Made by a program: the position numbers and the translations under genes. A DNA stretch of 49,066 nt from positions 1,767,813-1,816,878 of the forward strand of contig CP070718.1 of the NCBI GenBank assembly GCA_020350565.1, given 5' to 3'. The stretch comes from Phycisphaerales bacterium. Its GTDB lineage: Bacteria; Planctomycetota; Phycisphaerae; UBA1845. Below, piece after piece: positions 14,629 to 41,003 of this stretch (positions are counted from its first letter, which is position 1; the number at the start of each line of letters is the position of its first letter). The notes beneath the pieces were generated by a model, which saw only the letters and a program-made list of their open reading frames with translations, was not told the DNA's origin and searched no databases.

Positions 14629-14949
14629 TACGACACGCAAGTCATCTAGAGTTCTGATCTTAGAGTGCCGGAAGTCAGCCGCCGATCGGCGCGGGAACCG
14701 TTTGTTGGCTTCGTGCCGTTGTTGCCGACGTTGCGCCATCGCGCACCAACTCGCCCGTGTGGTCGGCGTCGTGCGACAGGTAGTACGTGGTTCGAAAGAT
14801 CCAGAGAGGGACACAGAAGTGCAGGCTTCGCACCTCGATCCGGAGGGGCTGTCCAATTGTCGGGTCTTTAATCATCCGAAGAGAAGCTCTCCGGAAATCG
14901 AAGCCCAGCCTTCGCTGTCCACATCGTGAAAACGCAGCGAGAGGGAGAG

Positions 14950-20900: not shown

Positions 20901-22407
20901 TGATGACGGCACCGGCGGAAGCGGCAGTTGGCCGTCCAGCGGCATGGACATAACCGACGGCTTGTGGCACCACATCGTTGCCGTCAGGGATGCGACCCAT
21001 GTCCGGGTTTACGTGGACGGCGAGCACAAGGAGGGCTTCCCAAAATCGTATACCGCCGGTTTCGACGGTGTCGCGCCGATCAACCTCGGCTATCTCAATC
21101 TCAGCGGCCACTATCGATATGAAGGCCTCCTTGACCAGGTCGCGCTGTATGATCGCGCACTGGATTCAACCGAGATTGAGGATCACTACAACAATGGCCT
21201 GGGCAAAGACTACTGCGAGGAGTGTTCGCCCCCGGTGATCTCGACCCAGCCTCAGAGCCAGACCGTGTGTGAAGGCGATGATGCGCCGTTCACCATATCG
21301 GCGACCGGCACCGGCACTTTGCACTATGCCTGGTCCATGGATACGACGCCGGTCGGCACTGACAGTCCGGACCTCACGCTGGTGGGCGTGCAGATGAGCG
21401 ACGACGGCGCGCAGATCACCTGCGACGTGACCGACGACTGTGATACGGTCACAAGCGACGCGGCGACGCTTAACGTAAACCCGGTTCCGACGGCTACCGC
21501 CTCGAACGACGGGCCGATCTGCGAGGGTAACGATGTCCAACTGACCGGCGGTCCGGACAGCATGGACACCTACTCGTGGACCGGGCCGGGCGCCTACACC
21601 TCGGATCAGCAGAGTCCACTGGTACCGGCGGCCGAGGCAGGTGACTACTGCCTGACGGTGACCCTGGCCGGCTGCCCGTCGCAGGAAGTCTGCACGACGG
21701 TCGTCGTGAATCCGATCCCGACGGCAACCGCCTCGAACGACGGGCCGATCTGCGAGGGTAACGATGTCCAATTGACCGGCGGTCCGGATGGCATGGACAA
21801 TTACTCATGGACCGGGCCTGGCGCCTACACCTCGGATCAGCAGAGCCCGCTGGTGTGGGCCGCCGAGGCGGGCGACTACTGTCTGACAGTGACCCTGGCC
21901 GGTTGCACGTCACAACCTGCTTGTACCACGGTCGTCGTAAACCCCGGACAACCCGCGATCGATCAACAGCCCAATGACGTGGCAGTCTGCGAGGGCCAGG
22001 ACGGCATCTGCACGATCGTAGCGCATGGCACGGGGACACTGCATTACTCCTGGTTGCTGGACAGCCAACCGGTCGGCACGGACAGCGACACGCTCGTGCT
22101 GCCGGACCTGCAGTTGGAGGACGACGGTTCCGAGATCAGGTGTATCGTCAGCGACGACTGTGGCCTGGTAATGAGCGACTCGGCATGGATCACCGTAGAC
22201 CCCATGCCTCTGGGCGACATCAGCGGCGACTGCGATGTAGATCTGGACGATTACGGCTTGTTTGCAGCATGCATGGGAGGCCCGGACGAGACCACGCCAC
22301 CGGGCGGTTGCTCGACAGAGCATTTCGAACGAGCCGACATGGACGATGACAGCGACGTTGACCTGGCGGACTTCGCTCTGTTCGAGACTTCGTATCCCAC
22401 TGGTTAG
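14950..22407 (+). CDS. Giant secreted LamG / SGNH-hydrolase protein with dockerin-like tail
   Basis: A 2485-residue exported protein. After a long signal region (hydrophobic core SVILGCVIAFASAHGIASG, ~37-52) come a LamG domain (56-275) and an SGNH/GDSL hydrolase (~290-505). The hydrolase has block I GDSIT (~294), GTNALD (~382) and the DNLHP Asp-His pair (~472), so it is probably an active esterase of the carbohydrate-esterase type. Five Ig-like (He_PIG) plus LamG pairs follow to ~2093, then an Ig-like domain, two VCxG-type Ig repeats (231-bp period, from 21487), another Ig-like domain and a paired EF-hand, dockerin-like tail (2420-2485; DVDLDDYGLF and DVDLADFALF). LamG modules bind sugars or proteins, so the likely job is polysaccharide binding and deacylation outside the cell. 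The start at 14950 sits behind AGGGAG; Met at 14956 is an alternative with better spacing. Units 3 and 4 are almost identical in DNA. Confidence 0.9.
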   Translation: MNMHPESAQAPQCAPIHSWPLGHPHQGCRELTRLPSVILGCVIAFASAHGIASGECPTTTVAYWHLDETSSGTYVDSANGNDGTCAGVCPTPAASGKINGAQEFDGDTTGIDVAADPSFDWGKDDSFTIEFWMKRDGPIGSGGVPDNEVIIGRDDSATDLHWWFGVANTTGAAHFQIGDVTGDSVVVEGPAVDDGRWHHVVGVRDGDNDLNILYVDGEEADSVSKDYAAGFGSATAALNIGWLDLSTYYHYEGVLDEVAVHNRVLSPQEIRSHYYLVRDYCDVCATPVRIMPLGDSITVGNASGVVPDQEEYWVSYRKNLWESLGGAGYVVDFVGGEVHGDYYDPPFDSQHEGHGGWRDDEIASNVVSFLTANPADVVLLHIGTNALDTSPADVEDILINIDFVSEDITVILARIINRMDHECPDPSTTTTFNDNVEDMALLRIANGDKIIIVDMECGAGMDYREQPVGDMNDNLHPYATGYAKMADLWFQTLDTFLPLCGPHAPTITSDPITEAFVGQLYSYDVEATGSPEPTYSLVTYPTGMTINATTGLIEWTPSAGQLGPNPVTVQAENTEGTDTQSFTVGVVYPPTCPEDMTHYWKLDEDPGPPYEDYYADNDATCTNCPAPTTGIVDGAQQFDGLADEVDVADDDTFDWGASDEFSIEYWMNSTSDCGGNEVIVGRDDSSSSLHWWTGCADSGDQAVFVLVDTAGGNGGSSNWPYSGIDITDGFWHHIVAVKDSTHIRLYVDGQEKDSEPKSYADGFDGPVPVNIGYLNLNGHYRYEGAVDEVALYNRALDISEIQDHYNSGTGKSYCQDMPSPPTITSTPVTTAYVGQLYTYDVDAIGYPAPTYALLTYPVGMTINETTGLIEWTPTVDQIGPNSVSVQASNSEGDDTQDFTVTVSEGPICPDDIISYWPLDETSGQTFDDFYGDNDAACSSGHCPTPDVGGLINGCQDFNGADEYLTVPDDPSFDWSSTDSFTIEVWANFTNVSTKNKSMIGRDEGGGSPHWWLGASVNTGVAKFNLVDTNGNGVAVSGGPAINDGYWHHLVAVRDESLDENRLYVDGDLVDWATHDYTAGFEASTTLDIAYMAYNGNPDYFYDGLLDEIALYQRALAEPEIKQHYEDGLLGYAVCGEPEAPSITSTPVLDASAGHLYTYDVDAIGYPAPTYALLTFPDGMTINTTTGLIEWTPTVDQIGPNSVSVQASNSEGDDTQNFTVTVSEGPICPDDIISYWPLDETSGQAFEDFYGDNDAACSSGHCPTPDVGGLINGCQDFNGTDEYLTAPDDPSFDWSSTDSFTIEVWGNFTNVSGKNKVMVGRDEGGGFPHWWLGASVNTGVAKFNLVDTNGNGVAVLGGPAINDGYWHHLVAVRDESLDENRLYVDGDLVDWATHDYTAGFEASTTLDIAYMAYNGTPDYFYDGLLDEIALYQRALTEPEIEQHYDDGLLGYAVCREPEAPNITSTPVLDASVGQLYSYDVDATGHPAPTYTLIENPDGMTINAATGVIEWTPAAEDVGGNPVTVKALNSAGEDQQFFTIQVSPGAVCPDGMTSYWRLNEVSSGSYADSVDGNHGICGDAACPTPTPSGQVDAAQLFSVASNTGIDIPPDTSFDWGAGDSFSVEYWMITDPSSTCSGNQVLVGRDDGATQLHWWTGCYDGGDPSFIIRSTTGESGDDGVLRGISDLTDGFWHHIVAVKEGDDLLLYVDGDVEDSSSFAFTAGFDSATAAINIGWLNLSAGYNFDGTIDEVAIYNRALKEYEIEYHYANGQIGEAYCEDYLVAPTIISTAPVEATAGELYTYDVDAVGNPVPTYALDIYPTGMTINPSTGLIEWTPDVGQGGLNSVTVRATNSEGDDTEVFDIDVTVPSPCPANMTHYWKLDDAAAPYEDFYGDNDATCSFCPTPATGIVDGAQQFDGLDDEVDVADDNTFDWGASDTFSVEFWMNSNSDCGGNEVIVGRDDASSDLHWWVGCADAGDEAMFVLIDRDDGTGGSGSWPSSGMDITDGLWHHIVAVRDATHVRVYVDGEHKEGFPKSYTAGFDGVAPINLGYLNLSGHYRYEGLLDQVALYDRALDSTEIEDHYNNGLGKDYCEECSPPVISTQPQSQTVCEGDDAPFTISATGTGTLHYAWSMDTTPVGTDSPDLTLVGVQMSDDGAQITCDVTDDCDTVTSDAATLNVNPVPTATASNDGPICEGNDVQLTGGPDSMDTYSWTGPGAYTSDQQSPLVPAAEAGDYCLTVTLAGCPSQEVCTTVVVNPIPTATASNDGPICEGNDVQLTGGPDGMDNYSWTGPGAYTSDQQSPLVWAAEAGDYCLTVTLAGCTSQPACTTVVVNPGQPAIDQQPNDVAVCEGQDGICTIVAHGTGTLHYSWLLDSQPVGTDSDTLVLPDLQLEDDGSEIRCIVSDDCGLVMSDSAWITVDPMPLGDISGDCDVDLDDYGLFAACMGGPDETTPPGGCSTEHFERADMDDDSDVDLADFALFETSYPTG
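17464..19377 (+). repeat. Two near-identical 957-bp in-frame tandem units inside the LamG gene
   Basis: The block TACGACGTGGATGCGATCGG recurs at 17464 and 18421, 957 bp apart (319 codons). Almost the whole unit between is the same, with scattered mostly silent changes. The corresponding point of the next unit is at 19378, again 957 bp on, but that unit is clearly diverged. The unit before begins at 16516 (948 bp) and the last spacing is 966 bp. Each unit encodes one Ig-like plus one LamG domain. Confidence 0.9.
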
Positions 22408-22585: not shown

Positions 22586-25500
22586 ATGAACAGAATGGAA
22601 CTGTTCCTCACGAGCCGAGGTCTCGCGATCTGTCTCGCCTTTTTGATGCCGGGCACGTTCATCTCCGCTCCCCGAGCGATGGCAGATTCTCCCGACCTCG
22701 ATTTTCACAGCCATTTCGTCGATGATGACGACACCGGCGCCAGCAGCGGCAATGGAGACGGTGTCGTCAATTGCGATGAGACCATCGAGCTGCTGATCAC
22801 GCTCGAAAACACGGGAGACGGAGACGCCCATACCGTCCGCGCGATCTTAAGCACGAACGATCCGTTCGTCGTGGAAATCACCGACAGCTCGGAATTCTAT
22901 CCGGACATCCCGGCCGGCGAGACTGCAACCTGCATCGAGGATTTCGACATCGTCATCGCGCCAGACTGCCCCGACGGCCATCAGATCGCCTTCGATCTCA
23001 GTATCCTCGCGGATGAAGGCTTCTGGAATGACAGCTTTGTGATCATCAGCGGGCCGTGCGGCGGGACCCCGACCCTGTCTTATAGCAGCCACGTTGTGGA
23101 TGACGATGACACCGGCGCCAGCAGCGGCAATGGAGACGGTGTCGTCAATTGCGATGAGACCATCGAGCTGCTGATCACGCTTGCGAACACCGGAGACGGG
23201 GATGCCCACGAGGTCGGCGCGATCCTCAGCACCGATGATCCGTACGTCGTGGAAATCACCGACAGCTCGGAATTCTATCCCGACATCCCGGCCGGCGAGA
23301 CCGCAACCTGCATCGAGGATTTCGACATCGTCATCGCACCGGACTGCCCCGAAGGGCATCAGATCACCTTCGATCTCAGCATCAACGCGGCCGAGGGTTT
23401 CTGGTCAGACAGCTTTTTCATCACGGTGGGCCCCTGCTCCATATGCGGCAATGGTGTATGTGATTCCGGAGAGGACTCGGTTACCTGCTGCGACGACTGC
23501 GGTCCAGTATGCGGCGACGCTGCGTGCAACTGCGGAGAGGACAGCCTGACGTGTTGTGAGGATTGCGGCGCCGTGTGCGGAGACGGCACCTGCAACTGCG
23601 ATGAGGACACCTGTACCTGTCCGCTGGATTGCGGCTCGTCTTGCGGTGACGGGTGCTGCAATGGCGACGAGGATACGTGCGACTGCTGCGTTGATTGTGG
23701 CACGGCCTGCCCCGACGGCTGCTGTAGTACGGAATGCGGGGAAGATGAATTCAATTGTCCTGAGGACTGTTGCGGGCCATACACGATTGGAGGGTTTGTC
23801 TATGACGATTGCGAAAACCCGGGCACCAGCGGGATGCAGGGGGTGACCGTTTGCGTCGACTGCCAGCCAGGCTTTCAGAACTGTACCGACAGCTCCGGAT
23901 CGGCCGGGTCCTGGCAGATCCCCGATGTTCCTTGCGGCACCTGCACTGTAACAGCCGCCCTCAACCTGTATGATTTCTGTCATGTCGTGGACGCATGCCC
24001 CCCGGATCCTTGTGAAGGCACAGCCGTCGTCATCGTCGACTCAACTCACGAGCAGGAGAATCTGAATATTGAGTTTCTGGGAGTCGCCCTTCCACCTCCT
24101 GAATGCGATGAAGATTCGGATTGCGACGACGCAGACCCGTGCACTTTGAATCGATGCGTGAACGAGCAATGCGTATATCCTCCGGCCTCAGCGGGAACGG
24201 CGTGCGGTGATCCAACGGACGACGACTGCACGAATCCGGACTCATGCGACGGGGCAGGCCAGTGCCAGGCTAACCACGCTCCTGCGGGTACACCCTGCGG
24301 CAGCCAAGCCGACGACGAGTGCACCGCCCCTGATACCTGCAATGGTGAAGGCATCTGTCTTGCCAACGACGCGCCTGTGGGAACGGCTTGCGGTGACCCA
24401 ACGGACAACGACTGCACCGATCCGGACACCTGTGACGGTGATGGCCTGTGCGAGTCCAATCACGCTCCTCCGGGCTCCACCTGCGGTGATCCAACAGATA
24501 ACGAATGCACAGATCCGGATTCCTGCGACGGGACTGGCAATTGCCTGCAGCACGATGCGCCAACGGGAACGCTCTGCGGCGACCCAACAGACGACGCATG
24601 CACGGACCCGGATTCTTGTGACGGCACCGGCAACTGCCTTCCCAACAACGAGCCTGACGGAACTGACTGCGATGACGGCCTGTACTGCAACGGAGCTGAG
24701 ACTTGCGCGGGCGGCATCTGTCAAGGCGGAACGGCTCCCGACTGCAATGACGGCATCGATTGCACGGATGACGCGTGCAATGAGGCCACCGACTCATGTG
24801 ACAACGTGCCCAACGATGCGCACTGCCCCGACGACGGTTTGTTCTGCAACGGGACCGAGAGCTGTGATGCCTCGTCAGGATGTGTCTCCAGTGGCGACCC
24901 ATGTCCCACCGGCATGTCCTGCAACGAAACCACCGACAGTTGTGAGCAGTGCCAAGGTGACTCCGACTGCGATGACGGGGTGGATTGCACGGATGACACC
25001 TGCGTAGCCGGCGCATGCGTGTTCACACCCAACGATGCCCATTGCCCCAACGATGGCCAATTCTGCAACGGAACCGAGAGCTGTGATGCCTCGTCCGGTT
25101 GTATATCGAGCGGCGACCCGTGCCCTGCCGGCATGTCCTGCAATGAGAGCACTGACCGCTGTGAGCAGTGCCAAGGTGACTCTGACTGCGATGACGGAGT
25201 GAACTGCACGGACGATACGTGCGTGGCCGGTACGTGTGTGTTCACACCTAACGATGCCGACTGCCCCGACGACGATTTGTTCTGCAATGGGACCGAGAGC
25301 TGTGATGCCTCCTCAGGATGCGTATCGAGCGGCGACCCCTGCCTTGCAGGCAAAGTGTGCAACGAGCAAACCGACACGTGCGAGGACGCCGATCTCGATG
25401 ATCCACTCGCCGATCAGGATTCTGATGGTGACGGCGTGCCCGATACGGCAGATGCCTGTCCTGGTACGCCCCCAGGCACGCACGTTGACGCCAACGGTTG

Positions 25501-26341
25501 CGCCTGTCATCAACTTGATCGGGATGGCGACGATGTCGATGATTGCGGCGATCGTTGTCCCGACACGCCTTCCTCGGAACGCGTCAATGAGCAAGGATGT
25601 TCTTGCAGCCAGATAGACTGCGATGATGACGACTCGTGCACAATCGATTCCTGCCTGAACGGTAACTGTATCAACGCCCCAATCGACTGCGATGACGGCG
25701 ATTCGTGTACAGAGGACAATTGCCTCGGGGGCCTCTGCCAGAACACACCAATAGAATGTCCGGATGATACCGAGTGTGTTGACGGTGAATGCGTTCGTTT
25801 TTGGACACTAACGGTGAGGCTTCAGCCCGGGGATGTAGGCAGACCGCCTCCCGAGCAATGGCTTCAGGACGGTACCCTATACTCGTTGCCGATCCCGGAG
25901 CCCGCGGCTGAGTCACTGTATGTGTTCGACCATTGGGAAGGGAGTGTGCAACCCGCCCAGGAGATGGCTGACATCCTGGAGATTCTGATGGATTCGGACA
26001 AGACACTCACTGCAGTTTACAGGGCCGTCGATTGTCTAGGTGACGATGAGAGCGCCCCAGACATGTACTGTCTTGAAGAAGCCTGCGTCGAGTGCCGTAA
26101 CGACGACGACTGTGCTGACGACGGGCTGTTTTGCAACGGCACAGAGAGATGTGCAGATGGCGCGTGCATCCATGAAGGAAGCCCCTGCCCACCGACCAAA
26201 TCCTGCGACGAGGATCTCGATACCTGCTGCGTACCTGCGCCTTGTGGCGCCGGATGCGGATGCACGCCGGACGCACCGATGGTGGGAATCATCCTCTTCG
26301 GACTGCTCACGTTGCGATTTGTGGGGCGGCGAGCGCCATAG
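22586..26341 (+). CDS. Secreted Cys-rich repeat protein with MYXO-CTERM-like C-terminus
   Basis: A 1251-residue exported protein. Signal peptide 1-34. Two near-identical CARDB/Ig-like repeats of 126 residues (about 37-282). About five short Cys repeats of the form CGNGxCxxGEDxxTCCxDC (289-398). A carboxypeptidase-regulatory-like beta-sandwich (~400-495). Five ~33-residue repeats of the pattern ACGDPTDxDCTxPDxCDGxG (~515-690). Three longer repeats with CxGTESCDASSGC. Thrombospondin type 3-like Asp-rich calcium motifs (DSDGDGVPDTADACPG). An InlB-like divergent repeat (FDHWEGSV). The last 28 residues have Cys residues, a 16-residue hydrophobic helix (MVGIILFGLLTLRFVG) and a basic RR end. That is the plan of MYXO-CTERM-type sorting tags, so surface anchoring is likely. 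AGGAGG lies 7 nt upstream of the ATG. Function is probably structural or adhesive; no catalytic domain was seen. Confidence 0.88.
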   Translation: MNRMELFLTSRGLAICLAFLMPGTFISAPRAMADSPDLDFHSHFVDDDDTGASSGNGDGVVNCDETIELLITLENTGDGDAHTVRAILSTNDPFVVEITDSSEFYPDIPAGETATCIEDFDIVIAPDCPDGHQIAFDLSILADEGFWNDSFVIISGPCGGTPTLSYSSHVVDDDDTGASSGNGDGVVNCDETIELLITLANTGDGDAHEVGAILSTDDPYVVEITDSSEFYPDIPAGETATCIEDFDIVIAPDCPEGHQITFDLSINAAEGFWSDSFFITVGPCSICGNGVCDSGEDSVTCCDDCGPVCGDAACNCGEDSLTCCEDCGAVCGDGTCNCDEDTCTCPLDCGSSCGDGCCNGDEDTCDCCVDCGTACPDGCCSTECGEDEFNCPEDCCGPYTIGGFVYDDCENPGTSGMQGVTVCVDCQPGFQNCTDSSGSAGSWQIPDVPCGTCTVTAALNLYDFCHVVDACPPDPCEGTAVVIVDSTHEQENLNIEFLGVALPPPECDEDSDCDDADPCTLNRCVNEQCVYPPASAGTACGDPTDDDCTNPDSCDGAGQCQANHAPAGTPCGSQADDECTAPDTCNGEGICLANDAPVGTACGDPTDNDCTDPDTCDGDGLCESNHAPPGSTCGDPTDNECTDPDSCDGTGNCLQHDAPTGTLCGDPTDDACTDPDSCDGTGNCLPNNEPDGTDCDDGLYCNGAETCAGGICQGGTAPDCNDGIDCTDDACNEATDSCDNVPNDAHCPDDGLFCNGTESCDASSGCVSSGDPCPTGMSCNETTDSCEQCQGDSDCDDGVDCTDDTCVAGACVFTPNDAHCPNDGQFCNGTESCDASSGCISSGDPCPAGMSCNESTDRCEQCQGDSDCDDGVNCTDDTCVAGTCVFTPNDADCPDDDLFCNGTESCDASSGCVSSGDPCLAGKVCNEQTDTCEDADLDDPLADQDSDGDGVPDTADACPGTPPGTHVDANGCACHQLDRDGDDVDDCGDRCPDTPSSERVNEQGCSCSQIDCDDDDSCTIDSCLNGNCINAPIDCDDGDSCTEDNCLGGLCQNTPIECPDDTECVDGECVRFWTLTVRLQPGDVGRPPPEQWLQDGTLYSLPIPEPAAESLYVFDHWEGSVQPAQEMADILEILMDSDKTLTAVYRAVDCLGDDESAPDMYCLEEACVECRNDDDCADDGLFCNGTERCADGACIHEGSPCPPTKSCDEDLDTCCVPAPCGAGCGCTPDAPMVGIILFGLLTLRFVGRRAP
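22715..23440 (+). repeat. 378-bp direct tandem duplication in the Cys-rich protein gene
   Basis: ACCGGCGCCAGCAGCGGC recurs at 22733 and 23111, exactly 378 bp (126 codons) apart, and most of both units is identical at the DNA level. This indicates a recent duplication or gene conversion of one Ig-like domain. Confidence 0.85.
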
Positions 26342-26738: not shown

Positions 26739-29700
26739 TTATCCGCTGAACGCCCCCTGGAAGGCCGCGTAATCCTTCAGGTCAACGTCGCCGTCGCCAT
26801 CGATATCGGCGCAAGCACAAATGGACTGGATCGACAAGCCGGGCCCTTGCAGGCACACCCCAAACTTCGCGAAGTCCTGCAGGTCCACGTCGTCATCCCA
26901 GTCCATGTCACCCGGCGTAATGCATCCTACACGGATGCTGACGACGGCGATGTTGGAATCACCGCCTTCAGGAGGCATACCCCCGTCGCCGGCCTTGTAC
27001 TCGAAGCTGTCATCGCCGGTAAAGCCCGCCCCGGGCATGTAGTATACAACGTCGAGGCCACCCGACAGCGCGTAGGGCACCGTGGTGATGGGGGCCCCCG
27101 TGTTCGGGTCCTCAAGGCCGCCATGGCCGGGCAGACTCATGACGGTATAAAACAGCATCCCCGGCGGGTCAGGCTCGCCGTCGTCGTCCGCCTGAAACTC
27201 AATCACTGCCGACGTGTCCATCGGCATACCCTCCATCCGGTCAATTGCGATCGGTGGGTGCCCGGCACAAGCGCCCAGGGCAGAGAGATCCGTCTCGGAG
27301 AAGCCCGGGGGAATCCCGTTGCCTTCGGACAGCCCGGCAATGCCGTCTGTCGCCTCGACGTTCAGGTAGCTGATCACGATGGTCCCGTCAAAGTACATCT
27401 CAACCTGGAAGGTGTTGGAGTTGGTGGCGCCGTACTCGGGCACATCCTCGTAGGTCACCACTACGCGATCGGCAAACTGCTCCCAACTGACCGACCCACC
27501 GTTTTGCGGGCTGAGGTCGTCGAACAGCGCCGAAAGCCGCGGCATGGCGAAGTGATCATCCAGCGCGATGTAATAGGTCGCGTCACCGCTGGTGAAAGTG
27601 ATGTTGCCGTTACTGTTGATGTAGAAGCTGTCGTAGTCGACGCCGTACAACGATACCATGGCTCCACCAGACAGCGTGATCAACTCATAGTCGTCCTCAT
27701 CAAGGTCGATCTGGGTGCCGCCGGCTGGATCCGTGGGCAGGCTGGAGATTTGCTCGACGCAAGCGGTGTAATAATCGCCGCTGCCGTCAGGAGCAAACAG
27801 GATGCTTAGGTAATCCAGATCGTTGTCGCCGACGGCTACCTCGAACTCTTCGGTAAAGTAGTCCGGATCCGTGTCGAAGGAGTAACAGTTGCCACCATTG
27901 TCGTCGGTCGTTTGCAAGCCGGCCAAGTTTTCCGCGTCGACCGCGAAGTAGTAGGTGGTGCCGCCGTCCAGGCCGGACAGGTCGATCGTGTGGCTGGTGA
28001 CGTAGCCGCCCTGTTTGGCGCTGTAGTCCAGCGTGGCACAGTCAACGCCATAGCGGACCGCGCTGTTGGCCTCCCGGTCAGTCTCGAAAACGATCGTGGC
28101 GGTCGACGGTCCGGTGACGGCGACTGTCACATTCGTGATGGTTGGCGCGGCGCAAACCACAACGGCGGTGTCTTCCACCAGGACGTTTGTGTGGCCCTGC
28201 CCGTCGTCTGCGTCGATATACTCAACCCAGACGTCATCACCGTCGCTTACCACGAGAACGCCGAGGCTGTCCGTGACATGGAGGTCGATGGACCCCTCGA
28301 ACCGCCCCGTCGAGTCGCCGGTCTCGGTCAACGTCACCATCTCGCCGACAGGCTCGGAATCGGAATAGATCGTGACGTCAACGGTGTCCGGGGCGCCAAT
28401 GTCGACATCCAGATCGCAGTCCTCCACTGTGATGTACGCCGTGTCCACACAGGCGTAGCCGGGACGATCCAGCGTCACGGTGCCGGCGTTGAAGCAGGGC
28501 GGAGGCACGATCGGGTAGCGCCAGGCGGTCAGGGCATCCACATCGTCCCGGAGGGGATGATCGATGAACTCGAAGAATGAGCCGGTCAGATAAGAGGCGT
28601 AGATCATGGCGGGGTCCAGCGCGCCGGACTCGTCCTGTGGTGTCAACGGGTCATCATCGTCCACGCTGAACAGGAGAGTCAGGACTTTATGCTCGTTCCC
28701 GGCGGAATCCCAATCCAGCACCGTCCAGACAAACTCGAACGCGTCGATGTCCGTATCATCATCAAGACCGAGGTGGGTGACATCGTCGATGGCTTGGACG
28801 AAGCCGCCACCAGGCAGCACCTCGTAGATGTCTCCGGGATCGAGCAGGCCGGGGGGAGTGTAGATGTAGGTCGCCTCGTGATCCGGCGAGAACAACCAAG
28901 TCTCGCAGACCGGGTCCGGCGGGTCCTCGTAGTAAAGGAGGACGTCGAGCGAATCGACGTCGTCGTCCTCTTCTTCGTCAAGGAGTGGATTCGGCCAAAG
29001 ACTGGTATGCAGGGTCGTCTCGTCCTCGATTGGGTAATGGGCCCCGACGATGGCGGGCGACGTGAGCGTAAAGAGGATCAGGCCCATGATCTCATCGTGC
29101 TCGTAGGTTTGACCGTATGTCGAGCCGCCGGGGGACTGGACCCGGGTCGGCACCTCACAGTCGCCCGGCGCGGGCAGGCTGCCCACGTAGTGCCCGGCCG
29201 TATCGTCATCGTAGGAAATCACCAGGTACTCCGGACCCGCGATGCACTGCGACTCGAACCCGGAAACGGGCTCGGGCAAGGGGTCCGGCCCCACGAGATC
29301 GGCCATCGAGAAATCGACGCTGTCGTGCCCGTCGAGATCGAAATACTGGTCCACGACGTCTGCCGGCGAGATCGCAGGATCTTCACAGGTAGGGGCCGGG
29401 TGGTGGTCAGGGACCATCCCGGGTATCGGCCAGGGGTCCTGCGCAAAGATGGCAAAATCGTTCTTGACCCCGTCGGTGCCATCCACTGGCAACGGCGGCC
29501 CGTGCCAAAGGTAGGCGTCCCCCGGATCGAAGACTTCGTCACCGTCATGGTATGGGTCGCTCAGTTCAGTGTCGGAGCCGATGTCCAGCGAGAACTCCAA
29601 CTCGCCGGCAGAACGGGGGGCCGGCGGGCCGGCCAGGCTCAGGATGATCCAACCCTCGAATGACGCGTTGGCAACGTCATCCTGGAAAGACCCCACGCCA

Positions 29701-30461
29701 GGCGGGTTGACCATCGCATCGGTCTGGGCCTGCACGTGTACATTGGCGACGTGTCCAACCGTTGCGGGGTAAGAGCCGTTCCCCTGCTGCGATCGGATTC
29801 CCCTGACCATGGGAAGATCGAAGTGATTCGCGGGGTTGGGCAAGTCAGTGCCGTTGAGTTGGACCTGCGTCGAGAACACGTTGGCCGGATCTTCCAGAAA
29901 CGCCTCATGCTTCAACCAGGCGAAAGAGAACTGGTCCCACAGGTAATAGACCGTCACCGGGTCGCCGGGCGTGCCGTCGACCCGGAGGCCCATGTCCAGG
30001 ATGATGTCGGCAATCCCCCAGGCGGTATAAGGAGGGGCGTCAGGACAGTTGTGGTTGCCGATCGACCATGCATACCACCAGATCTTGACGGTGTCGGTGC
30101 CGATTCCGTCTACCCAGAATGCCGTCAAGCCTTGTCCGATGATGGCGCAACTGGCAGCGCAAGGCGGCTTGCATATCGACTCGCACACTCCGGCCCGATC
30201 ATAGCCGCCCCACCCCGGCCAGATCACCGTGCTGGTCTTCGGCAGGAATATCGGCCAGGGGCATGCTGCACAGCGAGACCCCAGCGTATCTGCCTGGGTG
30301 AAGCCAGTCCAACTGCCCGAGTTGAACGCCCACACCGGGTCCTGGGCCCTGGCGACGGGACTGCCCAGTGGCGCGAGTATCGCCGTGGCAGCCAAGGCCG
30401 CGACGCAGGCATTCGTCCCGCCACGGCTGCACCTGGGACTGTGCTTTGTGTGTGTTCTCAT
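26739..30461 (-). CDS. Large secreted modular protein with dockerin-like tail
   Basis: A 1240-residue exported protein. The start at 30461 has AAGGAG 7 nt upstream and opens a signal peptide (core ACVAALAATAILAPLGSPVARA). An earlier in-frame ATG at 30596 would add 45 residues with no signal character. Residues ~40-655 are a large region I do not recognise, with N-terminal Cys pairs (CAACPW, CESICKPPCAASC) and many Asp-rich turns. After it come four modules: an AGTVTLDR...Cys beta-domain (~657-770), an FN3-like domain (~770-860), a nidogen-like beta-sandwich (DYLSILF to LSALGAC, ~880-1063) and a cadherin-like domain ending in PPEGGDSN (~1065-1178). The tail has two EF-hand-like motifs (DVDLQDFAKF, DVDLKDYAAF). 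The same four modules in the same order are in the C25 protease at 36318-41003. Likely an extracellular structural or binding protein; no catalytic motif found. It is divergent from the sigma factor gene at 30640. Confidence 0.88.
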   Translation of the reverse strand: MRTHTKHSPRCSRGGTNACVAALAATAILAPLGSPVARAQDPVWAFNSGSWTGFTQADTLGSRCAACPWPIFLPKTSTVIWPGWGGYDRAGVCESICKPPCAASCAIIGQGLTAFWVDGIGTDTVKIWWYAWSIGNHNCPDAPPYTAWGIADIILDMGLRVDGTPGDPVTVYYLWDQFSFAWLKHEAFLEDPANVFSTQVQLNGTDLPNPANHFDLPMVRGIRSQQGNGSYPATVGHVANVHVQAQTDAMVNPPGVGSFQDDVANASFEGWIILSLAGPPAPRSAGELEFSLDIGSDTELSDPYHDGDEVFDPGDAYLWHGPPLPVDGTDGVKNDFAIFAQDPWPIPGMVPDHHPAPTCEDPAISPADVVDQYFDLDGHDSVDFSMADLVGPDPLPEPVSGFESQCIAGPEYLVISYDDDTAGHYVGSLPAPGDCEVPTRVQSPGGSTYGQTYEHDEIMGLILFTLTSPAIVGAHYPIEDETTLHTSLWPNPLLDEEEDDDVDSLDVLLYYEDPPDPVCETWLFSPDHEATYIYTPPGLLDPGDIYEVLPGGGFVQAIDDVTHLGLDDDTDIDAFEFVWTVLDWDSAGNEHKVLTLLFSVDDDDPLTPQDESGALDPAMIYASYLTGSFFEFIDHPLRDDVDALTAWRYPIVPPPCFNAGTVTLDRPGYACVDTAYITVEDCDLDVDIGAPDTVDVTIYSDSEPVGEMVTLTETGDSTGRFEGSIDLHVTDSLGVLVVSDGDDVWVEYIDADDGQGHTNVLVEDTAVVVCAAPTITNVTVAVTGPSTATIVFETDREANSAVRYGVDCATLDYSAKQGGYVTSHTIDLSGLDGGTTYYFAVDAENLAGLQTTDDNGGNCYSFDTDPDYFTEEFEVAVGDNDLDYLSILFAPDGSGDYYTACVEQISSLPTDPAGGTQIDLDEDDYELITLSGGAMVSLYGVDYDSFYINSNGNITFTSGDATYYIALDDHFAMPRLSALFDDLSPQNGGSVSWEQFADRVVVTYEDVPEYGATNSNTFQVEMYFDGTIVISYLNVEATDGIAGLSEGNGIPPGFSETDLSALGACAGHPPIAIDRMEGMPMDTSAVIEFQADDDGEPDPPGMLFYTVMSLPGHGGLEDPNTGAPITTVPYALSGGLDVVYYMPGAGFTGDDSFEYKAGDGGMPPEGGDSNIAVVSIRVGCITPGDMDWDDDVDLQDFAKFGVCLQGPGLSIQSICACADIDGDGDVDLKDYAAFQGAFSG

Positions 30462-34131: not shown

Positions 34132-36135
34132 TTACGGCCACGTGGCAATGGCCGCGACATATTCGTGAGCGACCTCGTAACCACGAGAGCCGCGCTGTCC
34201 TTCAGCAAGCAACTTCAAGAACTCTTCCGCCAGGGCTTCACGCCTGTCGGGGTCGATGGCATCGTAGAAGGCGGTCCCGGCACCGGACTTGAGAAGGTGT
34301 TCAAGGACTTCCTCGGGACGGTCGTAGCGGAATACGACGACGCCTTCCCGCAATTCTTCGACCGCGAATCCCTCGGCGAGCAGTTCCGTCTCGGCACTCT
34401 CGGCATCGCGGGGGAAATCAAACGCAACGCGCTTCTCCAGCATGGACGGATCGCGGGCCACAAGCTCTGCAAATATCTCCAGCGGCTCGCGCGGCGAGTT
34501 CTCCTTGTGCACGACGAAAGCTAGCCGACCGCCGGTGGACAAAGCGCGGCCGGCAGCCGCGAAGAAAGGCTTTAGCGGGATGTATCCCAGGACCCAGCTC
34601 GAGAAGATGAGGTCGAACGGGCCTTCGGCTTCCATTGCCCGGAGCGCATCACCGGGAATGAAGCGGACGTTTCTGAATCCTCTGACCTGAACGCGTTTGC
34701 GGGCCTCAGCCAACATGCCCTCGGAAAGATCAACCGCCACGATGCTCCGGACCTGTCCAGCCAGTAGCGCGGTTGCGTAGCCGGTCCCACAACCGGCCTC
34801 GAAGAGGTGCTCGTCGCCGCGAAGCTGCAGCTTTCCGACAAGCTCGTCAATCGGCTTGGCGGCCTCCGTGAGCCAGAACGCGTCGTAATCGCTGTAGACC
34901 CGGTCGTACGCAGACTGCAGCTCTTCCGCCCCAACGACTTCCCGCGCCTCGGAGTGAATCCCGAAGAAACGCGGCACCGCGTGTGATTGGGGCAGGCATT
35001 CCTCGCAAAGCCTGTGGGACACTTCGGGCTGCGTGGGCAGTTCGCAACCGGATAGCGGCTTTGTGAGCAGGCGACCGACGCAGCTCGTCCTGGGCCTGCG
35101 AAAGTGCTTGCCCATTCGTTCGAGAATCCGCGCCAGCGGCTCACGACGAACGTTCCCGAACGACACAGGTGCCAACTGGCAAGGGCAGACCTCCCCGCTC
35201 CCGTCGATGTATAGATGAGTCAAACCGGCTCCGCAGCCAAATGCTTGCGGCGACTCCAGATACACATACGAGGAAAGGATCGGCAGGTCGTCGTCGCGGG
35301 CCACTTGCTTCTGGTATTCGAGGATCAGTTCTCGTTCGCTCTTGGTGAGCAAGACCTCCGTCTGACCGGCCAGCTTCCCGGTCGCACTGGGTTCGAGCAG
35401 GTGCACCTCCCGGGCGCCGGCGTCGGCCGCGAAACGCATAAAGGACATGAAGCATTCCGCCCGCAGAAACGCACGCGTCGCTACCGCAACCGCATATGGA
35501 TACAGATCATGCCGACCCGCTGTTTGCAGCGCCCTCAACGCCGTCTGGAACGCACCTTTCGTTCCGCGCAGCCGATCGTGCTCTTCTTCATCAGCCGAAT
35601 CGAGGCTGACGCCGATGCCGAAGACCCCACCGTCTCGCAGGCGTCGGGCGCGCTCGTCAGTCAGCCCCATGCCCGTGGTTCCGACAATCAGACAGCAACG
35701 CTCGTCGAACAAACTGACGATCTCTTCAAGATCGTCGCGCAGCAGGGGCTCTCCTCCGGTCAGCGTGACCATCACGGCGCCCAGCTCCTGCAGCTCGCCC
35801 ACAACGCTCCTCAAAGTCTCGACCGAAAGGTCCTGTTGACTACGCCCGGCGTTGTAGCAGTGCCAGCAATTGAACATGCACCGGTTGGTCACCGCCAACG
35901 CAACGGAATAGAGGCGTCGTTCGCTGGCATCGCCGAGCAGTCGAAATCCCTCCGTCAGTTTGTCAAACGCCGGACTGGGATAGGGAGGAAAGTGCGTGTT
36001 CACGACGAAGCGGTCGCCGAAGCGCACGGCTTTCTCATGGGAGAAGTATTCCTTGAGAAAGCCGGCCACTCTGGGATGCAGCTTTGTGAAAGGCGGTCTT
36101 TTCGAGAGTTCGATGAAGAACTCGTCACCTCGCAT
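34132..36135 (-). CDS. Radical SAM (SPASM-like) protein fused to a class I SAM methyltransferase
   Basis: A 667-residue fusion. Residues ~75-250 form a radical SAM domain with the 4Fe-4S motif CMFNCWHC (Cys86, Cys90, Cys93) and TGGEP (126-130). Residues ~300-395 carry extra Cys in a SPASM-like arrangement (CGAG, VCPCQ, then C-x2-C near 380), suited to auxiliary iron-sulfur clusters as in peptide-modifying enzymes. Residues ~405-560 are a Rossmann methyltransferase with motif I EAGCGTGYA (~442-450), followed by a ~100-residue C-terminal part. The first 70 residues are unassigned. SPASM proteins usually modify peptides or act as anaerobic maturases; whether the methyltransferase acts on the same substrate is unknown. 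No candidate precursor peptide gene was found beside it. GAGG lies 9 nt before the ATG. A terminator separates it from the upstream C25 gene, so it likely has its own promoter. Confidence 0.9.
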   Translation of the reverse strand: MRGDEFFIELSKRPPFTKLHPRVAGFLKEYFSHEKAVRFGDRFVVNTHFPPYPSPAFDKLTEGFRLLGDASERRLYSVALAVTNRCMFNCWHCYNAGRSQQDLSVETLRSVVGELQELGAVMVTLTGGEPLLRDDLEEIVSLFDERCCLIVGTTGMGLTDERARRLRDGGVFGIGVSLDSADEEEHDRLRGTKGAFQTALRALQTAGRHDLYPYAVAVATRAFLRAECFMSFMRFAADAGAREVHLLEPSATGKLAGQTEVLLTKSERELILEYQKQVARDDDLPILSSYVYLESPQAFGCGAGLTHLYIDGSGEVCPCQLAPVSFGNVRREPLARILERMGKHFRRPRTSCVGRLLTKPLSGCELPTQPEVSHRLCEECLPQSHAVPRFFGIHSEAREVVGAEELQSAYDRVYSDYDAFWLTEAAKPIDELVGKLQLRGDEHLFEAGCGTGYATALLAGQVRSIVAVDLSEGMLAEARKRVQVRGFRNVRFIPGDALRAMEAEGPFDLIFSSWVLGYIPLKPFFAAAGRALSTGGRLAFVVHKENSPREPLEIFAELVARDPSMLEKRVAFDFPRDAESAETELLAEGFAVEELREGVVVFRYDRPEEVLEHLLKSGAGTAFYDAIDPDRREALAEEFLKLLAEGQRGSRGYEVAHEYVAAIATWP

Positions 36136-36317: not shown

Positions 36318-39300
36318 TTACTGGAACATGCCCATCATCATCTGGAACGCGGCGAAATCGCCGAGATCGACGTCGGCGTCCGCGTCGGAGTCGAACACCT
36401 CACATTCCGTCGTCGGCGGGCCGGCATCGGGCCCCGTCATGCATTCGGGGAAGTAGACGAAGTCGGCCAGGTCCACCACGCCATTTTCATCGTAATCGCA
36501 CGGTAGCTCGACCTCCGGCAGGCCCCAGATCTCTATCGCATCGATGGCCGCCTCCGTGATCGAGTTGTTCGGGTTGTCCGTCGCGCTGAAGCGAACCTTC
36601 ATCTGTGCACCCGGCGTGATGTAGTCGACCATCTCGATCGTCGGCTCCACCCAGCCCACCGTATGCGGCACGCTCTCGATCAGCACCCACGAGGCGCCGT
36701 TGTCATTGGAAATCTCGACGTCCAGGCGGTCTATGTCGCCGTCATCGCAGGTGAACCAGCGGGCATAGCGCAGCTTGGGATCGATCACGCCGGCCACGTT
36801 CACCGTGGGAGAGATCAGCCGTGTGGGGCCGCCGTCCACGTCCGCACCGATCGCCCGCTCGGTCAGATAGCAGCGCCCCGAACCGTCGTAGTCGCTGGAG
36901 GGGGCCCCCGGGCTGCCGGCGATCGGAACGAGCCGCTCCCAGGCGCCGGTTTCCAGTTCGATGTTCTCTATGATCCAGCCCTTGTCCGTCTCGAAGTCGT
37001 CTTCGAAGAAGGTCATCGGACCACCGACCGTGACCGAGACCGTGGCAACGTTCGAGCCGGCCGTCGCATCCCGTGCGGAATACTCGAACTCGGCCACCAG
37101 GTTCTGATAGATCGGCGGCGAGTACCGGACCACTGCCCCGCCATCAACGAGCTCATACGGCACCTCGGTGATCGCCCCGGCGCCCGGATCATCCAGTGTG
37201 CCCTCCAAAGGCAGGCTCTCAATGAAGTAGGTCAGGGGATCGCCGTTGGGATCGATGGCGTTCAGGGTAACGTCCACCGGAGTCGAGATGGGCGTCGCGG
37301 CCGTTACGGGATAAGCGACCGGTGCCCACGCGGGACCACCGACCGTTACCGTCACCGTCGCGATGTTCGAGCCGGCCGTAGCGTCTGCGGCGGAATACGT
37401 GAACTGCGCCGTCAGGGTCTCCTCGCCCACCGGCGGAGCGTACTGCACGACGTTCCCGCCGCCCACCAACTCATAGGGAACTTCGGTGATCGCCCCGGCG
37501 CCCGGATCGTTCAACGTCCCGGAAGCAGGCAGGCTTTCAATGAAGTACGTCAGCGGGTCTCCATTGGGATCGGTCGCGTTCAGCACCACGTCGACCGGCG
37601 TGCTGGCCGGCGTCGAGGCGTTGACGTTGAACGCCTGCGGATCCCACGCCGGACCGCCCACGGTGATCGACACGATGGCTGTATTTGAATCGCCGCCTTC
37701 CGGCGGAACGCCGCCATCGTTGGCCACGTACTGGAAGTTGTCCCCGCCGCTGTAGGTCGACTCCGGCTGATAACTCAGCTCGTTGCCGTTGTCGGCCAGC
37801 TCATGCGGGATCGAGGTGATCTGCCCGAACCCGGGCTCATACAGGTCACCATGCGTGGGCAGGGTGGTCACGATGTAAGTCAGTGCGGCCGGCGGATCCG
37901 GCAAGCCGTCATCCGTGGCTTGCAGCGTGATCGCGATGGAGTCCGCGCCCACCGGACCGGTAACCTCGACGGGCATGGCCGTCGGCGGCTTCGGACCACA
38001 GGCGCCCATCTCCGATAGGTCGGTCGGGTAGAAGTCCGGGCTCAAGCCCTCGCCCTCGGACAGACCCGCGATACCGTCGTTCACCGCAACCTCCAGATAA
38101 CTGATCGTGATGGTCCCATCGAAGAACAGCTCGACCTGGAAGGTGCTGCTGTTGGACGTGCCGTACTCGGGCACGTTCTCGTAGGTCACTACCGCCCGAT
38201 CGGACAACTGCTTCCAGCTCACGGCCCCACCCGCATCGTCGACGCTGAAATCATCAAACAGCGGCGAGATCCGCGGCATATCGAAGTGATCTGCCAGCGA
38301 CTCGGTGTAATCCGAGTCCCCGGAGCCGAAGGTGATGTACCCGTTGTCACAGACGTAGAAGCTGGAGTAGCTGACGCCATAGAGCGATACGGTCTGCCCA
38401 TCGCCCAGCGTCACCTGCTGGTAGCTGTCCTCCGTGATGTACAGCGCCGTCCCGCCGGCCGGGTCGGTGGGCAGACTCTCGATCGGCTCCGTACAACCAT
38501 CGTAGAAGTCGTACGTGCCACTAAGCTCGAAGGTCAGGGTCAGGTAATCCAGATCGTTACTGCCACTGAACTCCTCGGTAAAGAAGTCGGGCACTTCCGG
38601 CGTCGTGAAGGTGTAGCAACTGCCACCATTGTCGTCGCTGGCGGTGTTGCCCGCTTCGTCTTCGGCCTCCACCGCATAGAAGTAGGTTGTGTTGTCGTCA
38701 AGCCCGGCCAGCTCGACCAGCGGCTCGGTGCTGTAGCCGCTGCCGGCGGTCGTCTCCGTCAGGGAATCGCAGGACGTGCCGTAGTGCACCGTGCCTCTTG
38801 TGGGCTCGTCGGTGTCAAAGGTGATCGTAGCGCTGCGCGCCTCGATGTTAATCGCCTCGACGTTGGAGATCATCGGCGCGGTGCAGTCTACCGGTGCAGT
38901 CGCGGTAACCACCACGTCCGTGCCACCCTCGCCGTCGTCGGCATCGATGTACGTCACCGTAATGGTGTCGCCCTCCGCCACCAGCAACACGCCGGCGCTG
39001 TCCGTCCCGCTCAGCGTGATGAAGCCTTCAAACCTGGCGGAGTCCGGATCGGTCTCCGTAAGGGTAACCTGCTCAACGCCGGTCTCGGAATCCGAGTCGA
39101 TATCGACCGTCACATCATCGACCACCGTGTCGTCCGTGTTCAGGCCACAGTCGTTGACCAGGATTGTCGCGGTGCCTTCGCACGCATACTTCATACGATC
39201 CAATGTGACCGTGCCGGCATCGGTACAGGTTCCCTTGAACGCGACTGCCGGGTCGCCAAACAGGTTCAACTCGTAGTAGCACCACCTCATGCAGTCTTCG

Positions 39301-41003
39301 TTGATGCGGTAGAGGTTATCCTCCTTTGAGTCCTGGTTGGCCCGCCCCATCTCGGGCATATCCTCGTCCGGATTGAACACGGCGTCCCAAAACTCACGGT
39401 TAAACCGTTGAGAAGGGCCGTCGGTGGAGTACCACTCGCCATAGCCGTAACGCGCATTCATGACCACTCCGAAAGCGGCGTGATCCGTCTTGATATTCGC
39501 CGTTTCGGCCCAGCACTCCGTACCGTCGAAGTGGCCGGCGTCGCAAGTCTGCGAGTAGACGAAGCAAAGATCCTCGTTGATCAGGTCGTTGAGAACGTCG
39601 CTGTTGTACAGCTTCATGGCGTAGTCCGGGCTGCCGTGGCCCAGATGGTTGACGATATGCTGACCGGCGTTGATCCGCGCCTCGATTTCGGTTGGCGGCC
39701 AGTCGTTGCCCGGCCAGTCACGATCGTACAACGTGTCGATCGTGAAGTCGTCGGAGGGAAAACCGATGGTCGTGTATCCATGGGCATCCGAGCCGTCGAT
39801 CAACTCGTCCAGATAATTGCCACCGTATTCCGCTACACCGCCGAATCCGAGGTATTCGCCCACCAATATGACCTTCTCCGGCTGGGAGTGCTGACCGGTC
39901 ACGTACCAGATGGTCTTGTCCACGAAGCGCCCGACCTCGGTGGTGTTGTCGGCCGCGGCACGCCCCACGAACACCTCGGCTATCAGATCGACATCGCCGC
40001 CACCCTCGCCGTCGGTGGGCTCACCCCAATAGCCGTCGCCGTCGTAGTTCCAAGTGCCGTCGAGACAGCCGAAAAAAAGATCACCGGGCATGTCGTTGAT
40101 GCCGTCGACGTAGAGATCCTTCGCCGGGATGGCGTCATCGTCGGCACCGATGATAACATACTGGATCCCGTCATTGAGATATCGCTCGATGATATAGTCG
40201 CGCACATCGACGGGATCACTGCTGCCGACGTCGGTGGTCGTTGTATGGATTTCGGTCGGCATGCCGTAACTGTCATGATGGTTCTTGAGCGGCACAAAGG
40301 CCCCGGCGAGCGATTCGGTAGTGAGAATCATCAGTTCGAAAGCTTCTCTGTCTCGTTCTCCCCCCCTTGGGTACGTATCGGCAACCCCGGGGTTATCCAC
40401 CCGGGCACGGACCTCCACTTCGTCCTCTTGGAAGCCTCGAAAGAGAGGGGAAAGCCTGCCTGTGTCAATCGTGTCAACCACAACCGTCAGGCGAGGATAG
40501 TAGTAAAGCTCGCCCGAAGTCGGAACGTATTGAACCGGCTGCAATTTCAGGGTCAGAGTTGCATAACCACGAAAATGATGCACGCCGATGTTCTCGAACC
40601 GAGTCCCCGGGAAAGGCTGGTCCGAGGAGTAGATGGCGCTGTCGGGGACCGGTGGACTGGCGGCCCCCGGGCCGGACGACAGCGGCACCGGACGTGCAAG
40701 CGGCTCGATCAGGTAACCGTCGCCGAGGGCGACCTGCTCCCCAGCCACAATCTCGATGCGCGAGACTTCGGCGCCCATGGGAAGCAGGAGCCGCGCACCG
40801 CTCGCAGGCAGGGCTGGCTGCCCAGCCTTCCCGCCGTTCGTGCAACCGGGAATGGTCACTCTGTCGTAGATCTGCCCCCCCAGGGAGACCTTTGAGAGCT
40901 TCGGACGGTCAAATGTGTAGTCTACAGTCAGTTGTTCCGCCGTCGCCGAAACGGCCCAACTCCCCAACGTGATGACGCAGATGAGCAAGGTGTGAAGCTT
41001 CAT
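36318..41003 (-). CDS. Secreted gingipain-like cysteine protease (peptidase family C25) with dockerin-like tail
   Basis: A 1561-residue exported caspase-fold protease. The ATG at 41003 opens a signal peptide (HTLLICVITLGSWAVSATAE) behind AGGGTGG. Residues ~24-220 resemble the C25 propeptide. The catalytic domain (~220-600) has His ~455 in NHLGHGSPD and Cys ~486 in SQTCDAGHF, 31 residues apart, like the His/Cys dyad of gingipain R. It continues with the AGTVTLDR domain (~590-705), FN3 (~705-800), nidogen-like (~815-998), a cadherin-like PPEGGDSN domain (~1000-1110), two ATDPNGDPLTYFIESLP repeats (~1115-1325), a MAM-like domain (~1330-1500) and a paired EF-hand tail (DLADFVYF, DLGDFAAF). C25 includes secreted proteases and the PorU sortase of the type IX system; no other type IX genes are visible. 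A role in degrading or processing extracellular proteins is likely; specificity (Arg or Lys) cannot be read. Confidence 0.92.
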   Translation of the reverse strand: MKLHTLLICVITLGSWAVSATAEQLTVDYTFDRPKLSKVSLGGQIYDRVTIPGCTNGGKAGQPALPASGARLLLPMGAEVSRIEIVAGEQVALGDGYLIEPLARPVPLSSGPGAASPPVPDSAIYSSDQPFPGTRFENIGVHHFRGYATLTLKLQPVQYVPTSGELYYYPRLTVVVDTIDTGRLSPLFRGFQEDEVEVRARVDNPGVADTYPRGGERDREAFELMILTTESLAGAFVPLKNHHDSYGMPTEIHTTTTDVGSSDPVDVRDYIIERYLNDGIQYVIIGADDDAIPAKDLYVDGINDMPGDLFFGCLDGTWNYDGDGYWGEPTDGEGGGDVDLIAEVFVGRAAADNTTEVGRFVDKTIWYVTGQHSQPEKVILVGEYLGFGGVAEYGGNYLDELIDGSDAHGYTTIGFPSDDFTIDTLYDRDWPGNDWPPTEIEARINAGQHIVNHLGHGSPDYAMKLYNSDVLNDLINEDLCFVYSQTCDAGHFDGTECWAETANIKTDHAAFGVVMNARYGYGEWYSTDGPSQRFNREFWDAVFNPDEDMPEMGRANQDSKEDNLYRINEDCMRWCYYELNLFGDPAVAFKGTCTDAGTVTLDRMKYACEGTATILVNDCGLNTDDTVVDDVTVDIDSDSETGVEQVTLTETDPDSARFEGFITLSGTDSAGVLLVAEGDTITVTYIDADDGEGGTDVVVTATAPVDCTAPMISNVEAINIEARSATITFDTDEPTRGTVHYGTSCDSLTETTAGSGYSTEPLVELAGLDDNTTYFYAVEAEDEAGNTASDDNGGSCYTFTTPEVPDFFTEEFSGSNDLDYLTLTFELSGTYDFYDGCTEPIESLPTDPAGGTALYITEDSYQQVTLGDGQTVSLYGVSYSSFYVCDNGYITFGSGDSDYTESLADHFDMPRISPLFDDFSVDDAGGAVSWKQLSDRAVVTYENVPEYGTSNSSTFQVELFFDGTITISYLEVAVNDGIAGLSEGEGLSPDFYPTDLSEMGACGPKPPTAMPVEVTGPVGADSIAITLQATDDGLPDPPAALTYIVTTLPTHGDLYEPGFGQITSIPHELADNGNELSYQPESTYSGGDNFQYVANDGGVPPEGGDSNTAIVSITVGGPAWDPQAFNVNASTPASTPVDVVLNATDPNGDPLTYFIESLPASGTLNDPGAGAITEVPYELVGGGNVVQYAPPVGEETLTAQFTYSAADATAGSNIATVTVTVGGPAWAPVAYPVTAATPISTPVDVTLNAIDPNGDPLTYFIESLPLEGTLDDPGAGAITEVPYELVDGGAVVRYSPPIYQNLVAEFEYSARDATAGSNVATVSVTVGGPMTFFEDDFETDKGWIIENIELETGAWERLVPIAGSPGAPSSDYDGSGRCYLTERAIGADVDGGPTRLISPTVNVAGVIDPKLRYARWFTCDDGDIDRLDVEISNDNGASWVLIESVPHTVGWVEPTIEMVDYITPGAQMKVRFSATDNPNNSITEAAIDAIEIWGLPEVELPCDYDENGVVDLADFVYFPECMTGPDAGPPTTECEVFDSDADADVDLGDFAAFQMMMGMFQ

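Follow-up and report, generated by a model that had tools for sequence, protein, structure and literature searches.

Two predicted secreted proteins with a common C-terminal block

The window (the whole stretch of DNA analysed, 49,066 nucleotides of a Phycisphaerales genome) contains two open reading frames on the minus strand, P0001 (26739-30596) and P0002 (36318-41030), both of which begin with Sec-type signal sequences as read from the sequence. The likely start codons and the layout of the two proteins are given in Table 1. P0008 (29736-31052, plus strand) was rejected as a gene, since it looks like a shadow frame.

BLASTP aligned residues 701-1224 of P0001 with residues 602-1125 of P0002 (282 identities in 528 columns, 53%, E=2e-152), corresponding to window positions 26925-28496 and 37656-39227, respectively. 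This block is the sole long similarity of the two proteins, and outside it no alignment was obtained except with the extra copies of module M4 in P0002 and between the dockerin-like ends. The homology is also visible at the DNA level (68.6% identity over 757 bp), far beyond chance. The initial annotation had described a cassette of four modules in the same order in two exoproteins, and the alignment over approximately 525 residues confirms this. It had placed the copies at 26930-28495 and 37670-39235, correct within 1-14 bases, and had left the minus strand unstated. Missing from it were the dockerin-like tail on both proteins (seen in the alignment of their ends), the two extra M4 copies and the additional beta-domain (M5) of P0002, and one or more additional cassette copies that the same genome carries behind a subtilase.

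Table 1. Features of P0001 and P0002 in the window, with the basis of each assignment.
Feature	Position	Strand	Basis
P0001 gene: signal peptide, N700, cassette, dockerin-like end	26739..30461	-	Likely ATG at 30461 (Met, then Sec-type signal sequence, read from sequence)
Dockerin-like double Ca-binding motif, P0001 C-terminus	26742..26924	-	PF00404, 19.7 bits; alignment with P0002 end
Copy 1 M4, cadherin/Big_9-like, ends PPEGGDSN...RVG	26925..27263	-	Alignment with P0002; weak Big_9
Copy 1 M3, divergent NIDO-like domain	27264..27869	-	NIDO in 57/79 homologues; AF2 model, pLDDT 89.8
Copy 1 M2, FN3-like domain	27870..28145	-	PF16656, 3.6e-6; weak fn3
Copy 1 M1, S-layer-type Ig-like domain, four cysteines	28146..28496	-	Alignment with P0002; NmSLP sequence/fold match
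N700, ~615-residue uncharacterised region	28497..30344	-	Homologues in 11/59 other relatives, all without cassette
P0002 gene: signal peptide, C25 propeptide and protease, cassette, extra M4 copies, M5, dockerin-like end	36318..41003	-	Likely ATG at 41003
Dockerin-like C-terminal motif, P0002	36321..36506	-	Alignment with P0001 end; own HMM
M5, extra beta-rich domain	36516..37022	-	By eye
Two extra M4-like copies, not in P0001	37023..37640	-	Alignment, Pfam
Copy 2 M4	37656..37994	-	Alignment with P0001
Copy 2 M3	37995..38594	-	Alignment with P0001; NIDO profile
Copy 2 M2	38595..38876	-	Alignment with P0001; Pfam
Copy 2 M1	38877..39227	-	Alignment with P0001
Peptidase C25 domain	39243..40331	-	PF01364, 6.4e-44; conserved His465 and Cys496
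C25 propeptide	40476..40931	-	PF08126, 1.4e-11; Lys-gingipain propeptide structure 5mun, 1.9e-6

In front of the cassette P0002 carries a C25 protease, as initially reported, and a propeptide is present as well. The assignment to Peptidase C25 is based on the PF01364 profile and on the His465/Cys496 pair, which is invariant in all 21 of 21 C25 homologues. The corresponding region of P0001, about 700 residues without a credible Pfam family, had been called unknown and remains an uncharacterised extracellular region, with no Pfam family detected by Pfam scan in P0001 or in two homologues of N700.

Identity of the modules

Module M1 belongs, by both sequence and fold homology, to the S-layer Ig-like domains of the Nitrosopumilus maritimus S-layer protein (NmSLP) type. 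In a profile search it matched residues 1501-1594 of NmSLP (E=1.4e-21), and the M1 model (pLDDT 91.3) superposes on the ninth Ig-like domain of that protein (PDB 8C8K/8C8M) with a TM-score of 0.87, 1.8 A and 32% identity (Foldseek E=2.3e-10). Ig domain 9 has been described as the base of that S-layer, next to the membrane (PMC11153153). However, NmSLP is a lattice protein with ten Ig domains, whereas cassette proteins usually have a single M1 appended to an enzyme, an arrangement that does not point to a lattice former, and the likeness to an S-layer protein is no proof of assembly. Domains of the Ig-like kind act as spacers quite generally.

M2 is FN3-like, as initially annotated, with matches to PF16656 and fn3. 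The third module had been described as nidogen-like and possibly a new variant; the relation to NIDO (PF06119) stands, with 57 of 79 M3 homologues matching at E≤0.01 (best 9e-10), but it is probably a divergent member of the Pfam family and not a new kind. The window copies lie below the gathering cut-off of 25 (23.8 for P0001 M3 alone, 17.5 and 16.1 within the whole proteins), another homologue exceeds it (L120, 34.2), and the matches span part of the profile only. Structure prediction of this DYL domain gave a confident model (AF2, pLDDT 89.8), for which neither sequence nor fold comparison found a significant match among solved structures (best PDB E 0.17). The fold is nevertheless not unique, because in the viral library BFVD the model (27261-27872, minus strand) resembles uncharacterised proteins of Mimiviridae sp. 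ChoanoV1 and of phages (best E 9.5e-11). Conserved cysteines in M1-M3 are compatible with disulfides, which would be expected in an extracellular setting.

The cadherin-like label of M4 stands as Big_9/Cadherin_4-like, with the qualification that the best gathering-level matches in P0002 fall on the extra copies and that the match in P0001 is weak. Some other cassette proteins gave weak M5 matches in their tails. The end of P0001 scores 19.7 bits against Dockerin type I (cut-off 22.9). Among the 73 cassette proteins described below, 55 terminate in an EF-hand/dockerin-like motif by regular expression, and 18 tails lack it by the same search, some of these being truncated.

Distribution and partners of the cassette

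The survey covered 60 genomes of one Planctomycetota order, own genome included, most of them metagenome-assembled genomes (MAGs). Cassette matches were found in 42 of the 60, many of them full length. The own genome alone gave 12, including partial sets and a third copy (G000:C1:163394-164785; L117:2744-6466) behind a subtilase-type region, with one in-frame TAG that may reflect a disrupted gene or a MAG sequencing error. Among the 150 matches listed, 46 span all four modules, 27 modules 1-3 and 25 modules 1-2. Inside the order the modules are thus not mostly alone, as 73 of the 90 listed matches with module 3 have modules 1 and 2 directly in front. In total, 73 distinct proteins have modules 1-2-3 in fixed order, most of them also module 4, and the joints between modules are mostly 1-6 residues. 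A literature search found no description of the cassette.

The front parts of these 73 proteins were assigned to S8a (48), C25 (9), BNR-type (5), S8b (4), S1a (3), S1b (3) and N700 (1), with labels given per front-part cluster, from representatives scanned with Pfam, and not per protein. Within the S8a cluster, pairs from one genome range from 24 to 80% identity, which makes the cluster a wide one. The modules therefore do recur together beside unrelated catalytic domains, in six N-terminal groups and with N700, as had been anticipated, but the cassette lies behind these domains, not in front of them.

The proposal of a portable unit of about 500 residues is upheld by the many partners and the fixed order, although the unit is not strictly indivisible. 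Module 3 occurs without modules 1 and 2 behind C25, and in MAGs of Acidobacteria, CSSED10-310 and Nitrospiraceae modules 1-2 occur without 3, following regions that belong to the S8a and trypsin-type clusters. At the level of the phylum, 29 of 246 genomes (counting the own genome) gave matches to module 3, most of them partial, and modules 1-2 were also present at one (L185) of the few loci that were read.

Exchange between genes

On the cassette tree the partner labels require 17 changes, compared with a minimum of 6 and a mean of 24 after shuffling, and partners are therefore partly conserved and often exchanged. Cassettes with different partners have a median identity of 55.2% within a genome and 49.5% between genomes (p=6e-6, for pairs lacking independence). 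In 13 cases the nearest cassette with a different partner was in the same genome, where 2.5 were expected and the maximum in 1000 permutations was 9.

In genome G008 two S8 proteins have front halves that are 24% identical and cassettes that are 74% identical (84% at the DNA level over 1357 bp). When an S8 gene and a BNR gene of the same genome were compared in DNA windows, identity was 38-49% in front of the cassette, 61-78% over M1-M2 and 84-99% over M3 together with the beginning of M4. The match between an S8 and an S1 gene of G019 begins near the start of M1 and continues to the end of the protein. Since genes with unrelated or 24%-identical fronts in G008 have stretches of M3-M4 DNA that are 84-99% identical, the sequence patterns indicate exchange or homogenisation of the cassette between genes. 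All S8a pairs, compared for enzyme and cassette identity, gave no general same-genome excess, and strong homogenisation is therefore local, being clear in G008 and in one G019 pair. The window copies have diverged (54%), and for this reason an exchange event of their own cannot be dated.

Homologues of N700 are encoded in 11 of 59 other genomes of the order, and none is joined to a cassette. The front of P0001 thus belongs to a cassette-free family, and on this sequence evidence P0001 has probably gained its cassette. We have also weighed an ancestral, otherwise vertically inherited cassette, in front of which enzyme domains were swapped, and regard it as unlikely. It would account for S8a being the commonest partner (48/73), for M1-M2 behind S8a-like regions in other phyla and for the partial clustering of partner labels on the tree, but the same-genome similarity across partners and the sharp intragenic shifts in identity need exchange, and the cassette-free N700 proteins suggest gain.

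Possible role of the cassette

We find it reasonably probable that secreted proteins of this order use the cassette as a portable C-terminal tail without catalytic function, which serves as stalk and retention element and has spread by recombination. The tail would form a string of extracellular beta-domains (S-layer-type Ig, FN3, NIDO-like and cadherin-like) after the enzyme domain, usually followed by a putative calcium-binding dockerin-like end. As a stalk it would place various secreted hydrolases at some distance from the cell, and it would also retain them in the matrix or surface layer. New combinations of enzyme and tail would arise when 3' gene halves recombine within one genome. Export, stalk geometry, calcium binding and surface retention, and the biochemical function of the cassette as a whole, we infer from sequence; the attachment or assembly role suggested in the initial annotation may be understood in the same way.

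A bolder reading, which we advance tentatively, is that the whole order mounts unrelated hydrolases on a common envelope receptor via one interchangeable docking tail, built round the archaeal S-layer-type Ig and the NIDO-like domain and homogenised by gene conversion in some genomes.

How planctomycete exoenzymes are anchored is, to our knowledge, poorly understood, and the cassette provides a way into the question. The order is a testable case in which one tail is reused on C25, S8 and S1 proteases, on BNR-type proteins and on an uncharacterised protein, with exchange tracts between genes still visible in some genomes, and through the cassette the secreted enzymes of planctomycetes are connected with an S-layer Ig domain of solved structure.

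It is possible, if doubtful, that M3 and M4 instead bind a polymer or other cells and so aim unrelated hydrolases at the same target. NIDO and cadherin-like domains are found in animal adhesive and matrix proteins, and C25 is among the cassette partners. In the gingipains of Porphyromonas gingivalis the precursors of RgpA and Kgp have a haemagglutinin/adhesin domain between the catalytic and C-terminal domains (PMC10319874), which would fit such an arrangement. On the other hand, M1 and the dockerin-like end suggest spacing and retention, and the Pfam matches of P0002 at E≤1 include no cleaved-adhesin family, which places the protein outside the gingipain haemagglutinin/adhesin group. Like P0002, RgpA and Kgp have a multidomain C-terminal region that comes after a C25 protease and is common to several proteins, but they differ in their other domains and in phylum, and the cassette proteins were found without a T9SS tail and with partners including S8, S1 and BNR-type. 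Because the domains differ, the gingipain layout would be the closest functional analogue in the sense of working alike, and not a sign of membership. A paper cited in PMC10319874 reportedly deals with domain rearrangement and allelic exchange in P. gingivalis surface proteins. The adhesin reading is compatible with the stalk and retention reading.

The dockerin-like ends of most cassette proteins raise the question of a cellulosome-like system, in which these ends would plug the enzymes into cohesin scaffolds. Such a cohesin/dockerin "planctosome" for peptide degradation has been proposed in planctomycetes of the Nemodlikiaceae (PMC6461901), and the likeness lies in secreted peptidases of planctomycetes that terminate in a dockerin-like motif. 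The own genome (estimated to be 67% complete) yielded no cohesin, and among the 60 genomes cohesins were present in 20 of 42 with the cassette and 9 of 18 without it, that is, with no association. Cohesin-dockerin assembly was accordingly rejected as a candidate, and we give it little likelihood here.

We hold it to be very improbable that the tail serves chiefly as a signal by which a dedicated export system sorts or secretes these proteins. It would agree with the C-terminal position of the tail on all cargo, with two tails that scored as hydrophobic and CTERM-like, and with exosortases encoded in the own genome, but both proteins of the window start with Sec-type sequences and lack a CTERM tail, and a multidomain signal of 525 residues would be unusual. 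The stalk and retention reading is the one that we prefer.

Three further genes of the window were read. One on the plus strand (14926-22407) encodes a 2493-residue protein with a GDSL lipase-like domain, six LamG domains, He_PIG repeats and a dockerin-like end. The next (22586-26341, plus strand) encodes a 1251-residue cysteine-rich protein in which CDDG-type motifs are repeated and whose short, hydrophobic C-terminal tail contains RR and resembles CTERM sorting signals. Between P0001 and P0002, on the minus strand (34132-36135), lies an apparent radical-SAM enzyme fused to a methyltransferase-like domain, as judged by eye.
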